NCBI GenBank assembly: GCA_026770585.1
Contig: MU646541.1
Span: 381,955 to 413,329 of the forward strand
DNA: 31,375 nucleotides
Reading direction: 5' to 3'
From: Baffinella frigidus
Lineage: Eukaryota; Cryptophyceae; Cryptomonadales; Baffinellaceae
Of the stretch, positions 100 to 6,997 are shown piece after piece. Each line of letters begins with the position of its first letter. Positions within the stretch are counted from its first letter, which is position 1. Position numbers and translations under genes: made by a program. The notes beneath the pieces were generated by a model. The model was not told where the DNA came from. It worked only from the letters and a program-made list of their open reading frames with translations, and made no database searches.

Positions 100-1319
100 G
101 TGATGTCGATCTTCGTGGCCGACCTGCTCTCCCTCACGATGCTGACCCCCCCGGGCGACATCGGCGCGGACATCGTCCTCGGCAACTCCCAGCGCTTCGG
201 CGTCCCCCTCGGGTACAATCCCGAACCGACCTTCTTCTTCTGAAGCCAACATCGGGCCCCAGCCTCTTCTGAAGCCAACATCGGGCCCCAGCCGCGCGAG
301 TTTCTTACGGGTTAAGTTGCTTCTTTTGCCCGGAGCGCGGGGTGAGACACGGCGTTCAAAACCCCTTGACCCCCGCAGCGTTTCGGCGTGCCTTTCTGAC
401 ACTGCTACCCAATACCCCAACTACCCGAAACCTCAACCCCCAAACAGTATTATCCTATTCGCCACAACCGTTATTACCCCGAACCCTAAACCCCGACCCC
501 TCGCGCAGGTATGGTGGCCCCCACGCGGCGTTCCTCGCGTGCCAGGACGCGCACAAGCGCGCGGTGCCCGGGCGCATCATCGGCCTCTCGCGCGATGCTA
601 ACGGCGACAAGGTCGGATCCGCCCCCGCTTGCTCGTTTTTACACACGAGTTGCCCCTCCTCCTTCCCTCCTGGTGACCGGAACAACTCGAAGCGTAGACT
701 GGCCCGCCTTCAACTGTTTTTTTGAACGGAGTTACTAGGCTCGACACCTCTGAACAAATACACGACGTGTGGTTCTTGGCGTTTCTTTGCACGGCGACAC
801 CTGCATCGTTTGGCAGCCAGGCACGCCAGACATGGGAGATAGAGGAGGAGAGACAGGGTGAGTGAGAGGGTGAGAGGGTGCTCTACATGCCCTCTCTCCC
901 ACGGCGCAACTCCATGGCTAGCACTCCGCACCAACTCAAAACATGGTAGTAGAAACATGTCGTTGCAGGGGACTGACTGTCAGTCCAGTCCACCTTACCG
1001 GGGAGGTGTCTCAAGGACCTGCACACAGAACCCTTTCAAACTCTTGCGCCCTCACCCCCCCTGCCGGCAGGCGGTACGCCTCGCGGTCCAGGCGTTGTCA
1101 GCAATATCATGGTGTGGCGGTGGACTGACTCCATATGGTCGCGGTGGTTGCGGTGGACTGACTCCTCCCCTCCTCACAGGCGTACCGCCTCACGCTCCAG
1201 GCGCGTGAGCAAACACATGGTAGCAAACACCAACATTTCGGTGCGGTGCACTGACTGCCGTTGGTGCGGTGGACTGACTCCTCCCCTCCCGACAGGCGTA
1301 CCGCCTCGCGCTCCAGGCG

Positions 1320-1350
<31 letters not shown>

Positions 1351-4300: not shown

Positions 4301-6997
4301 GAATCCCAGACCCTGGACTCTGGATCCTAGACCCTCGACCGATCTCCCTCCAGCCCACCGCGGGCGACTCACGTGAGTACGCTGGTATACCCCAAACCCT
4401 ACCACCCGGTGGGCTACGAGGGGTCCGGACCCCAGATTCTGGGGGGCCACGCGACCAAATTTGCACCGGAAAAGACTGAATGTTAATCAATTGCCTGAGG
4501 CAAGTTGTTGATCAAAGGCCCGTAGCCCACCGCCTCGACCCTAAACCATAAATGCCTCAACTCCAGGTCTGATGGCCATCCGTGCCTACCACCTTGACCG
4601 CAAGGACGACCACCGCAACATCTGCCTGATCCCGCGCGCGGCGCACGGCACCAACCCGGCGACCGCCGCCATGTGCGGCATGGACGTCGTCCCCATCGAG
4701 TGCGATGACCAGGGCAACACGGACATGCAGGTCAACCCTACACCCGAAACCTCAACCCTTGAAAGACCCTACACACGACACCCTACACCCCGCACCCCGC
4801 ACCCTACACCCTAAACCCTGGGCAACACGGACATACAGGTTCCCCTCCCTTCCCCTTTGGGATGGTAGCGGGCTGCTGGCGCCCTCACCTCCCCTCTCTC
4901 ACCTTGCCGCCTGGCGTGCCGCGGTCGTTTTTGATAACTTGTTTCACACACTGCTCACCCGCCCCCTCCTCCCCTCCCCTCCCCCACCCTTAGGGGTCGT
5001 CGCGGGCTGCTGGCGCCCCGACCTCCCCTCTCACCTTCCCGTCTGGTGTGCCGCGGTCGTTTTTGACTTGTTTCGCACACGGCTCACCCGCCCCCGGACC
5101 GACTGGGTTTGGGGGCGACGGGGATCAGCCGTCGAGGGGACGCGACGGGGGTCAACCGTTGAGGGGGGGGGGGGGCAATCCTCCTTACCCTCCGTGGAGG
5201 ATAAGGAGGAGAGCCGAGGGCCAGGGCCGGACCGATTTCCAGTATCCCTGAACCCTAGACCCGGATCCCGACACCCTAAACCCTCAACTCTGCACCAGGA
5301 CCTCAAGGACAAGATCGAGGAGCACAAGAACAACCTCGGCGCGCTCATGATCACCTACCCCTCCACCCACGGTGTCTTCGAGGAGACCATCGTTGAGATC
5401 TGCCAGCGCATCCACGACGCCGGCGGTAAACCCCAACCATCAACTACAAACCCCACACCCCAATCCCTTACCCCTCAAACCCTAAACCATAAACATAAAC
5501 CCCGCACCCTAATCCCAAACCCCTCAAACCTCAACACCCAACCCTCAACCCTCAACAGTAAACAATACCCCTCAACCCTCAACCAATATTCCCTCAACCT
5601 TAAACACCAACCCCCAACCCCCAGGCCTCGTGTACATGGACGGCGCGAACATGAACGCGCAGGTGGGCTACTGCTCGCCCGGGCACATCGGCGCGGACGT
5701 GTGCCACCTGAACCTCCACAAGACCTTCTGCATCCCCCACGGCGGTACACCCCACACCCTAAAACCCCTTAACCCTACACCATAAACACCAAACCACCCC
5801 ACACCCCACGCCCTAAAACCCGACACCATAAACCCCAAACACCAAATTACCCCAAACCCTAAAACCCTGAACCCTACACCATACACCCAACACCCCAAGC
5901 CCTACACCACAAACCCTAAACCCCAAACCACCTCAACCTCAACCTCCCTCAACCTCCACCTCTGAACAATCAGCGCGAAGCAACAAACCACCACCACGTA
6001 ATCCTCAATGCCCAACGCCCAATCCGAAGCTGAATCCGAAACCGCAACGCAGGCGGCGGACCGGGCATGGGGCCCATCGGGGTTGTGAAGCGCCTCGAGC
6101 CGTTCCTCCCGGGACACTCGGTGATCGCGACTGGGGGCGCGCACCGCGCGTCGGAGGGTGGCAAGAAGAGTATCAAGGCTATCGCGGCGGCGCCGTGGGG
6201 CTCTGCGTCGATCCTGCCCATCTCGTGGATGTACGCCCCTACACCCGAAATGTTGGACTGTAGACCCTACACCACCACACCACCACACACATCACACCAC
6301 ACACCCTGAACCACACACCCTGAACCACACCGTAACAATTCCTCATCCCTGAACACTCTACCCAAACCCCTAAACCCTGAACCCCAAACCCTACTCCAGG
6401 TACATCCAGATGATGGGGACGACCGGCCTGGAGCGCGCGACGGAGCTCGCGATCCTCAACGCCAACTACATGAAGGACCGCCTCAAGGGGCAGTTCGAGA
6501 CGCTCTTCATCTCATCCACGGGGCGCGTGGCGCACGAGTTCATCCTGGACCTGCGGCCGTTCAAGGAGTCGTGCGGCGTGGACGCCACGGACATCGCCAA
6601 GCGCCTCATCGACTACTCGATGCACGCGCCGACCATGTCGTGGCCCGTGGCGGGCACGCTCATGTGCGAGCCGACGGAGTCGGAGAGCAAGGAGGAGCTG
6701 GACCGCTTCTGCGACGCGCTGCTGGCGATCCGCGAGGAGATCCGCGAGATCGAAAGCGGCAAGTACGACAAGCACGACAACCTGCTCAAGAACGCCCCCC
6801 ACACCATGGCGGAGATCTCGGCCGCCGAGTGGAACCACAAGTACTCGCGGGATCAGGCTGCGTTCCCCCTCGAGGGGCTGCGCTCCAACAAGTTCTGGCC
6901 GTCGATCAAGCGCATCGACGACGTGTACGGCGACAAGAACCTCGTCATCATCCTCGAGAAGAACCAGAAGCTCAACGTTCGCGTCAAGCTCAACTGA
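100..6997 (+). CDS. GLDC: Glycine dehydrogenase (decarboxylating), P-protein, 5'-partial
   Basis: P-protein of the mitochondrial glycine cleavage system: PLP-dependent decarboxylation of glycine and transfer of the aminomethyl group to H-protein. Fourteen exons join in one frame: 100-212, 509-611, 1296-1373, 1781-1909, 2435-2532, 2835-3044, 3313-3375, 3540-3633, 3927-4038, 4567-4730, 5299-5425, 5625-5744, 6053-6230, 6400-6997 (TGA 6995-6997). They total 2187 nt, i.e. 728 residues. Family landmarks in order are [93 protein letters not shown] (the lysine should be the PLP Schiff base), [21 protein letters not shown] and PTESE. About 250-300 N-terminal residues, including any transit peptide, lie before the window. 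Introns are 164-684 bp and rich in CCCTAAA-like repeats and partial exon copies. The extreme C-terminus diverges from what I know of the family. Confidence 0.96.
1071..1106 (+). pseudogene. Degenerate copy 1 of GLDC exon 3 head
   Basis: The sequence after an AG at 1069-1070 resembles the first ~35 nt of the true exon at 1296 (GCGTACCGCCTCGCGCTCCAG), with indels and substitutions. It lies in intron 2 (612-1295), upstream of a better copy at 1180. It is the most decayed of three tandem copies. Confidence 0.6.
1180..1219 (+). pseudogene. Degenerate copy 2 of GLDC exon 3 head with intact acceptor
   Basis: A CACAG acceptor at 1175-1179 precedes a near-identical copy of the exon 3 start. The preceding ~30 nt (GGTGGACTGACTCCTCCCCTC) also repeat before the real acceptor at 1295, so the duplicated unit spans the splice junction. 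Reading this copy in the exon 3 frame reaches a TGA within about 25 codons, so use of this acceptor should give a premature stop. Confidence 0.8.
1924..2030 (+). repeat. F-family repeat unit in GLDC intron 4
   Basis: A flank beginning with a CTGTCTCGCAGTCTATT-type segment leads into CCAAAGTTGACG...GTCAACTTGAGAACAGTC. The ends AAGTTGAC and GTCAACTT are inverted, so the core can fold. The same unit occurs near 2563, repeatedly between 12412 and 13525, and near 15342. Confidence 0.8.
2031..2186 (+). pseudogene. Two degenerate copies of the GLDC exon 4 tail
   Basis: 2031-2060 repeats the exon 4 tail encoding AKTFA..IK, but its donor GTGCGT has become GCGCGT. A second, more decayed copy at 2137-2182 (CTCAAGGGCGCGGGCACCAAA) keeps a GTGCGG donor-like site. 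Both lie inside intron 4. Confidence 0.75.
2563..2614 (+). repeat. F-family repeat unit in GLDC intron 5
   Basis: CTAAAGTTGACGGATTTG...GGCAACTTTAGAATAG matches the dispersed ~50-bp F unit. It sits between the true exon 5 tail and its degenerate copy at 2617. Confidence 0.75.
2617..2658 (+). pseudogene. Degenerate copy of GLDC exon 5 tail
   Basis: GCCGCCGAGATGAACCTCCG is repeated exactly from the real exon end (2513-2532), followed by CATGCACC in place of CATGTACG. The donor GT is therefore lost by one substitution. Confidence 0.8.
3051..3312 (+). repeat. CCCTAAA-like intron filler (GLDC intron 6, representative)
   Basis: Degenerate telomere-type motif (CCCTAAACCC, CCCTCAACCC, CCCACACCCT) fills most of this intron. 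The same material dominates introns 1, 3, 7-13 of GLDC, nearly always with the C-rich strand as the sense strand. An exception is 4166-4200 in intron 9, where AGGGTTTAGGGTTT runs on the sense strand. Confidence 0.85.
3446..3513 (+). repeat. AT-rich tandem repeat in GLDC intron 7
   Basis: Two near-identical ~33-bp units of GAAACATTATTATTTATT followed by ATTCAAACA. It is the only strongly AT-rich block in the gene, inside a 164-bp intron, and it gives a local base-composition break. Confidence 0.85.
4204..4277 (+). pseudogene. Copy 1 of GLDC exon 9 tail with intact donor
   Basis: 74 nt nearly identical to 3965-4038, encoding [24 protein letters not shown] peptide, followed by the same GCTG|GT donor context. 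Differences are mostly single substitutions, several synonymous relative to the true exon. It lies in intron 9, about 239 nt downstream of the real exon end. Confidence 0.9.
4339..4384 (+). pseudogene. Copy 2 of GLDC exon 9 tail, decayed
   Basis: A third, shorter version of the exon 9 tail (GATCTCCCTCCAGCCCACCG through GAGTACGCTG|GT) follows the second by about 107 nt. It keeps the donor GT. Confidence 0.85.
4407..4532. mobile_element. Foldback element family D, copy 1
   Basis: The ends CGGTGGGCTACG and CGTAGCCCACCG are inverted repeats, with partial inner symmetry and no coding capacity. A second copy with the same ends lies at 27211-27348. It sits in GLDC intron 9 just after the last exon echo. 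The structure is that of a MITE. Confidence 0.75.
4820..4838 (+). pseudogene. Short copy of GLDC exon 10 tail
   Basis: GGGCAACACGGACATACAG|GT repeats the last 19 nt of exon 10 (4712-4730) with one substitution and with a donor GT, about 108 nt into intron 10. Confidence 0.8.
4855..5094 (+). repeat. Tandem duplication in GLDC intron 10
   Basis: Two ~110-120-bp units share CGGGCTGCTGGCGCCC, TGCCGCGGTCGTTTTTGA and CTCACCCGCCCCC. They are not exon-derived as far as I can see. Confidence 0.8.

Follow-up and report, generated by a model that had tools for sequence, protein, structure and literature searches.

Tandem genomic duplication of AGGT-containing segments is reportedly a route of intron gain, put forward by Gao and Lynch in 2009. 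A review, PMC3443670, lists tandem genomic duplication as such a route, with in vivo support. New introns of Daphnia pulex display direct repeats attributed to the repair of staggered double-strand breaks, with 33 exon-end repeats of 4–12 base pairs (bp) and with internal repeats in 55 of 90 new introns; the repeats are proposed to lengthen young introns (PMC4202315). Direct repeats near intron borders are also reported for 213 introns, with a length of 4–30 bp and a mean of 11.4 (Rogers and Bendich 2025, PMC11782384). Here we describe longer copies of exon edges, termed exon echoes, that are found within introns of the cryptophyte Baffinella frigidus CCMP2293. The window analysed is a stretch of 31,375 nucleotides (nt) of nuclear DNA (contig MU646541.1, positions 381,955 to 413,329), situated at a contig end in a 382-Mb assembly. 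It carries GLDC (+ strand), a RAD51D-like gene (− strand), PSMB5 (+ strand) and, in part, an unnamed gene around 27.8 kb (− strand, a gene-finder call).

The echoes resemble the Daphnia repeats in that the terminal bases of the adjacent exon are repeated in the intron. Unlike the 4–12 bp repeats, each copy contains 10–81 exon nt plus intron sequence (aligned length about 20–140 nt), and the copies are multiple and found in introns of conserved genes. As in AGGT tandem duplication, a local duplication yields extra splice sites, and an intron predicted without a transcript in another stretch, L018, fits that route; however, the echoes in GLDC, RAD51D and the chaperonin gene CCT1 enlarge existing introns and create none. 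The repeats of Rogers and Bendich are also direct and close to intron-exon borders, but those are two-border repeats, whereas in Baffinella one edge is repeated one to six extra times per intron. A likeness to introners (PMC9860276) is seen in the pieces of a dispersed element that lie near donors in some Baffinella introns. In contrast to introners, the echo sequence is exon-derived and local, and the edge copies match their own exon alone (0/1300 mismatched pairs). None of the Baffinella introns examined was seen to be a complete element with short target-site duplications at its ends.

A literature search of titles and abstract openings showed, among the matches listed, no exon-edge copies this long and no such intron growth in cryptophytes. 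The CCMP2293 genome is given as 534.5 Mbp with 41.1% repeats in PMC9756366, and the word 'intron' is absent from the main text of that paper. Exon-end repeats of smaller size are already known, as is the growth of introns by duplication; new here are the longer, multiple and frequent copies, with a frequency that is that of Baffinella alone. In an earlier note on this DNA the echoes were said not to be known as a described systematic feature.

We read the exon echoes as ordinary local direct duplications, of the kind present throughout the non-coding DNA seen here, with a probability of about 0.7. An edge was counted as echoed at an alignment score of at least 30, a cut that was set after the window scores were seen. 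At this score an own-intron match is present for 11 of 54 edges (GLDC 5, RAD51D 6) versus none of 1300 non-adjacent edge-intron pairs (Fisher p = 1.4e-16 for own versus mismatched pairs, with edges within one gene not fully independent). No inverted own-intron match is found at a score of 28, either for the 54 window edges or for the 42 chaperonin edges described below. Dinucleotide shuffles (100 per edge, 5400 in total) give a maximum score of 32, and three edges have a shuffle that scores at least 30. The weakest echo, the exon 6 head copy in RAD51D intron 5 with a score of 30, is therefore marginal. The tail copy in RAD51D intron 11 is also marginal, scoring 25 on exon sequence alone, and is outside of the 11 edges. 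The earlier note had let its claim depend on exon edges being enriched over unrelated introns, and within the stretches examined, which are a part of the genome, they are.

The echoes recur on other contigs. Chaperonin genes, picked by a Pfam search of the own genome and blind to echoes, form an independent test set on three other contigs. The set consists of CCT1 on contig C94 (L029) and gene pieces on C6 (L030) and C39 (L031), with 42 edges and 21 introns. By the same method and at the same score, 6/42 edges in 6/21 introns are echoed (L029 five, L030 one, L031 none), versus 0/768 mismatched pairs within the set and 0/1134 against the window introns (0/1902 in total). Genes called by a gene finder in other stretches are less certain and show 3/63 echoed edges versus 1/1622 mismatched pairs, one of the three matches (L028, score 30) lying exactly at the cut. 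This gene finder had the three window genes GLDC, RAD51D and PSMB5 as its training set, and 2 of its 16 CCT1 junctions disagree with a transcript-derived protein. With fewer stretches and a cut of 26, 3/44 edges are echoed, the L018 repeat among them; the 63-edge count leaves this repeat out, owing to the low score of the last L018 exon. The copy in L007, at an offset of 120 nt, crosses the donor with 63 exon and 40 intron nt (103 aligned) and extends as far as the query does. Six genes or gene pieces taken together display a copy of their own exon edge in 16 of 48 introns.

The GLDC, RAD51D and PSMB5 models of the window have 27 introns, and 10 of these contain a total of 22 copies, derived from 12 edges (Table 1). 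The ten are 5 of 13 introns in GLDC and 5 of 11 in RAD51D, and PSMB5 shows no edge copy (0/6 edges). RAD51D contributes 14 of the 22, from the heads of exons 6, 8, 9 and 12 and the tails of exons 7, 9 and 11. The copies are situated 108–957 nt from the true site in the window, and 75–957 nt over all genes examined, with an identity between copy and original of 71–93%. One edge, the tail of RAD51D exon 7, is present up to seven times, and two units of this array are a 181-nt tandem repeat by repeat calling. All eight GLDC copies of the earlier note were located by alignment with the same exons and counts, and the copies it placed in RAD51D and in the 27.8-kb gene (one copy) are present as well. 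Its remark that some copies keep GT or AG and others do not also holds: of the 22 window copies, 20 retain the splice dinucleotide, one has GC in its place and one is unaligned there.

Table 1. Exon-edge copies, gene models and palindromes in the window (aligned values are identical/aligned positions)
Feature	Position	Strand	Alignment or remark
GLDC exon 3 head, far copy, acceptor AG	1055..1103	+	41/50
GLDC exon 3 head, near copy, acceptor AG	1142..1218	+	70/77
GLDC exon 4 tail, first copy	2032..2065	+	28/34; donor position beyond alignment, GC by eye
GLDC exon 4 tail, second copy, GT intact	2142..2195	+	43/55
GLDC exon 5 tail copy, donor GT to GC	2633..2672	+	37/43
GLDC exon 9 tail, first copy, GT intact	4204..4299	+	88/97
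GLDC exon 9 tail, second copy, GT intact	4335..4401	+	58/69
GLDC exon 10 tail copy, GT intact	4817..4840	+	22/24
RAD51D exon 12 head copy, AG intact	8860..8921	−	51/62
RAD51D exon 11 tail copy (intron 11), weak, GT intact	9237..9271	−	29/36; not above shuffles
RAD51D exon 9 tail copy, GT intact	10276..10355	−	71/81
RAD51D exon 9 head copy, AG intact	10765..10798	−	29/34
RAD51D exon 9 head, second copy, short, AG intact	11017..11037	−	20/22
RAD51D exon 8 head copy, AG intact	11840..11970	−	95/133
RAD51D exon 8 head, second copy, AG intact	12099..12183	−	71/87
RAD51D exon 7 tail, six extra copies, all with GT	12564..13424	−	by alignment; offsets 181–957 nt, interleaved with dispersed-element pieces
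RAD51D exon 6 head copy (intron 5), AG intact	14567..14644	−	58/81; marginal
27.8-kb gene, copy of exon tail 27864-27814, GT intact	27640-27590	−	exon is a gene-finder call; palindrome 27655-27776 in between
GLDC (glycine dehydrogenase, P-protein), 14 exons, 5′ end beyond window	100..6997	+	spliced model is one open frame
RAD51D-like gene, 12 exons	8499..16181	−	spliced model; Pfam Rad51
PSMB5-like proteasome beta gene, 4 exons	22332..23882	+	spliced model; Pfam agrees
MITE-like palindrome, ends like TACAGGGGTACCTCGCTC	7235-7358		
MITE-like palindrome, ends like TACAGGGGTACCTCGCTC	7675-7797		
MITE-like palindrome, ends like TACAGGGGTACCTCGCTC	8352-8472		
MITE-like palindrome, ends like TACAGGGGTACCTCGCTC	11612-11732		
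MITE-like palindrome, ends like TACAGGGGTACCTCGCTC	24268-24411		
MITE-like palindrome, ends like TACAGGGGTACCTCGCTC	25555-25675		
MITE-like palindrome, ends like TACAGGGGTACCTCGCTC	25825-25945		
MITE-like palindrome, ends like TACAGGGGTACCTCGCTC	27655-27776		
Palindrome, 88-nt arms, 1-nt spacer	28838-29014		arms 99% complementary
MITE, miniature inverted-repeat transposable element.

Local direct duplication is observed directly. The units are nearly head-to-tail in L007 and in some of the exon 7 array of RAD51D. In a tile test, with 40-nt tiles and a local copy within 1 kb, copies are found for 166/1187 intergenic tiles, 15/103 junction tiles, 19/149 exon tiles at most 40 nt from a junction and 166/742 intron tiles (echoes included), versus 0/118 tiles of the exon interior. 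An echo would arise when a local direct duplication spans an exon-intron junction and the extra copy falls inside the intron. The messenger RNA would be unchanged provided the outermost splice site is used. The intronic copy would then decay neutrally, with the exon still under constraint, and duplications within exons would be removed by selection, which would act as a filter. Physically, the duplication could come about by replication slippage, by unequal exchange or by staggered-break repair with fill-in.

Several results weigh against local duplication of this generic kind. In most echoes the alignment covers less than the offset, and filler or decay must therefore be assumed. A masked self-comparison of the window gives 13 genic duplication families, of which 10 touch a junction and 3 are intron-only. 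Junction tiles with a local copy (15/103) are above the intron tiles outside echo units (38/511). In a point test, in which each point is the centre of a query some 80 nt long, window and CCT1 pooled show a small excess at the looser cut (score 30), with 28/86 junctions versus 225/1000 intron points (p = 0.045). Except for the short aligned stretches, these results would be expected if breaks, e.g. staggered ones, favour exon-intron junctions in transcribed repeat-rich introns and fill-in copies the edges and enlarges the introns. The greater length of echoed introns, given below, and the short direct repeats at the two intron ends in the window (84 versus 73.3 by permutation, p = 0.002) lean the same way. 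In these repeats the intron's 5′ end matches the head of the following exon, or the tail of an exon matches the end of the intron.

Targeting of this sort is nevertheless unlikely. At the stricter cut of the point test (score 40) there is no pooled junction excess (15/86 versus 163/1000, p = 0.76). In the window alone there is none over intron points even at score 30: junctions give 15/54 and intron points outside echo units 132/600 (p = 0.31), with 241/600 for intergenic points, which take in dispersed elements and the unmodelled 27.8-kb gene. CCT1 by itself gives 13/32 junctions versus 93/400 intron points, with echo units left in. The signal of intron-end repeats is missing in the 21 chaperonin introns (p = 0.34), and the window and chaperonin introns combined give p = 0.003. 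Exon-side copies stay recognisable for longer because one partner is constrained. This slower decay, with the masking of telomere-like introns, could lie behind the junction excess in the families, the tiles and the looser cut, and for these two reasons the excess is not taken as proof of targeting. A targeting of boundaries by duplication is not clear from these counts, and the excess in families and tiles is the main limit on confidence in generic duplication. A fuller version, in which breaks with fill-in repair recur preferentially at the junctions of young telomere-like introns, junction copying is a chief driver of how introns grow and the spliceosome always picks the outermost among several near-identical sites, is quite unlikely. 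The earlier note had proposed a genome-wide process that enlarges introns by duplication across exon-intron boundaries. Recurrence on other contigs and the longer echoed introns support this in part; a process specific to boundaries is not supported.

Another explanation takes the copies as long target-site duplications from the insertion of MITE-like palindromes, with some of the elements acting as introners. An element core or palindrome does lie between the copies in GLDC introns 4 and 5, in RAD51D introns 7, 8 and 11 and in the 27.8-kb gene; in RAD51D intron 9 the same arrangement is seen by eye. In L018 (reverse-complement 3254-3440), a predicted 155-nt intron is bounded by 31-nt direct repeats (30/31) containing AGGT, a point in favour of this account; both splice sites of this predicted intron could come from one duplicated exon end. 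However, no listed palindrome lies between the copies in GLDC introns 2 and 10, and the DNA-transposon duplications mentioned for introners are 3–9 bp (PMC9860276). Palindromes have flanking direct repeats in 13/73 cases versus 268/3000 random intervals at score 28 (p = 0.013, about twofold), but in 8/73 versus 215/3000 at score 32 (p = 0.16) and in 6/73 versus 168/3000 at score 40 (p = 0.23). This account is improbable, and MITE insertion as the sole cause is weak: to the eye palindromes often lie between copies, but their direct-repeat flanks are weakly above random intervals and not significant at scores of 32 and 40. The larger contrast with mismatched flanks (16/73 versus 61/4946) reflects local repeats being common, nothing more.

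The dispersed element has the core AAAGTTGACGGATTTGTACC and is found at 1983, 2565, 12415-13474 and 15347; the introns concerned are 4 and 5 of GLDC and 4 and 7 of RAD51D. With at most 4 mismatches the core is present in 4 of the 27 window introns, mostly near the donor, and by eye the pieces look truncated.

With offsets of up to 957 nt and splice dinucleotides that are mostly intact, the copies offer a natural test of how the spliceosome rejects decoys. A function as alternative splice sites, or an origin from former alternative exons, is very improbable for them. The number of window copies with GT or AG would fit such a role, and the gene finder calls the copy at 4194-4277 an exon. But the retention is no higher than that of other dinucleotides: in copies aligned well on both sides (14 window and 8 chaperonin), the splice dinucleotide is kept in 17/22 versus 15.0 expected from the other dinucleotides in the same copies (p = 0.24). 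The copied splice sites decay neutrally, with neither upkeep nor purging, and no selection that preserves or destroys decoy splice sites is seen in this comparison. All 22 window copies span one exon edge each, without a second splice site.

At the echoed CCT1 introns the outer sites are those in use. The protein P0139, tagged as MMETSP transcript-derived, is 100% identical to the CCT1 model apart from model gaps. It confirms 14 of 16 junction peptides, including the outer sites at all five echoed introns (2, 5, 7, 9 and 14). Introns 6 and 16, which are without echoes, differ from the model, in an acceptor 6 nt further upstream and in an exon that extends by another 51 nt, up to a donor with GC. 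For GLDC and RAD51D the support for outer sites comes from annotation alone: the annotated proteins P0001 and P0121 use them at GLDC introns 4, 5, 9 and 10 and at RAD51D introns 7, 8, 9 and 11. The annotation is silent on GLDC intron 2, as P0001 lacks exon 3, and on RAD51D intron 5, as P0121 begins in exon 6. The copies appear to have no function in splicing. The competing splice sites of the earlier note exist as sequence, but it is the outer sites that are used at the echoed CCT1 introns.

An assembly artefact, which gaps in the draft assembly and an N run in the window might suggest, is hardly credible, since the copies are only 71–93% identical and have different flanks, vary in number and are found on several contigs. 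Many other stretches of the assembly read N, though not all of these need be assembly gaps: 12 of 20 stretches are entirely N and one more is N for 9695 of 10000 positions, and so are, in full, four stretches upstream of the window on its contig C237 (L023-L026).

Echoed introns have a median length of 548 nt (n = 16) versus 247 nt for the others (n = 32; p = 2e-5), a relation that is an association because longer introns give more room. The protein P0009, 87% identical, is uninterrupted from GLDC exon 4 to the end, across introns 4-13, and P0144, 86% identical, is uninterrupted from CCT1 exon 4 to the end, across introns 4-16. If P0009 and P0144 represent genomic open frames, as longest contigs of 207 kb and 113 kb for their respective sources suggest, these introns would not be common to the relative or relatives they come from. 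Going by the proteins of the relatives, the introns may have been gained in Baffinella or lost in the relative or relatives. Eight of them are echoed at a score of at least 30. The uninterrupted frame begins, in P0009 and P0144 alike, shortly after the position of a 5′-proximal intron of Baffinella, and intron loss mediated by reverse transcriptase would leave the same 5′-end pattern. The Baffinella genome is a place where intron growth via duplication could be timed.

The spliced GLDC product shows 97% identity over its full 728 residues to the Baffinella frigidus glycine dehydrogenase P0001, and the Pfam domains GDC-P and GcvP2_C agree with the model. GLDC exon 3 (1296-1373) is absent from P0001; the residues that P0001 has there instead can be read from intron 3, a match judged by eye. 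Exon 3 is an echoed exon, and its replacement by intron 3 residues is a warning to annotators. The transcript-derived P0019, from an organism whose name begins Hemiselm..., retains exon 3. The annotated hypothetical protein P0121 from the same species is an exact match to the RAD51D-like model from within exon 6 to exon 12 (56% of the model). RAD51D intron 1 (16065-15989) is without a GT donor in the model that keeps the frame and displays GGTG at either end; it may be a model error or a non-canonical intron. In CCT1 there is seemingly a GC-AG intron (L029, about 7840-8018), going by the transcript-derived protein.

Degenerate telomere-like CCCTAAA repeats are found in all GLDC introns except 2 and 4, in RAD51D introns 6, 10 and 11 and in 14 of the 16 introns of L029. 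The telomere-like words nearly always have the C-rich strand as sense, with 534 sense words versus 44 antisense ones for the 27 introns of the window and 554 versus 19 for the 21 chaperonin introns. Across the genome, CCCTAAACCCTAAACCCT is present 36772 times on the forward and 34766 times on the reverse strand (overlaps counted), and the reversed pattern 17 and 18 times.

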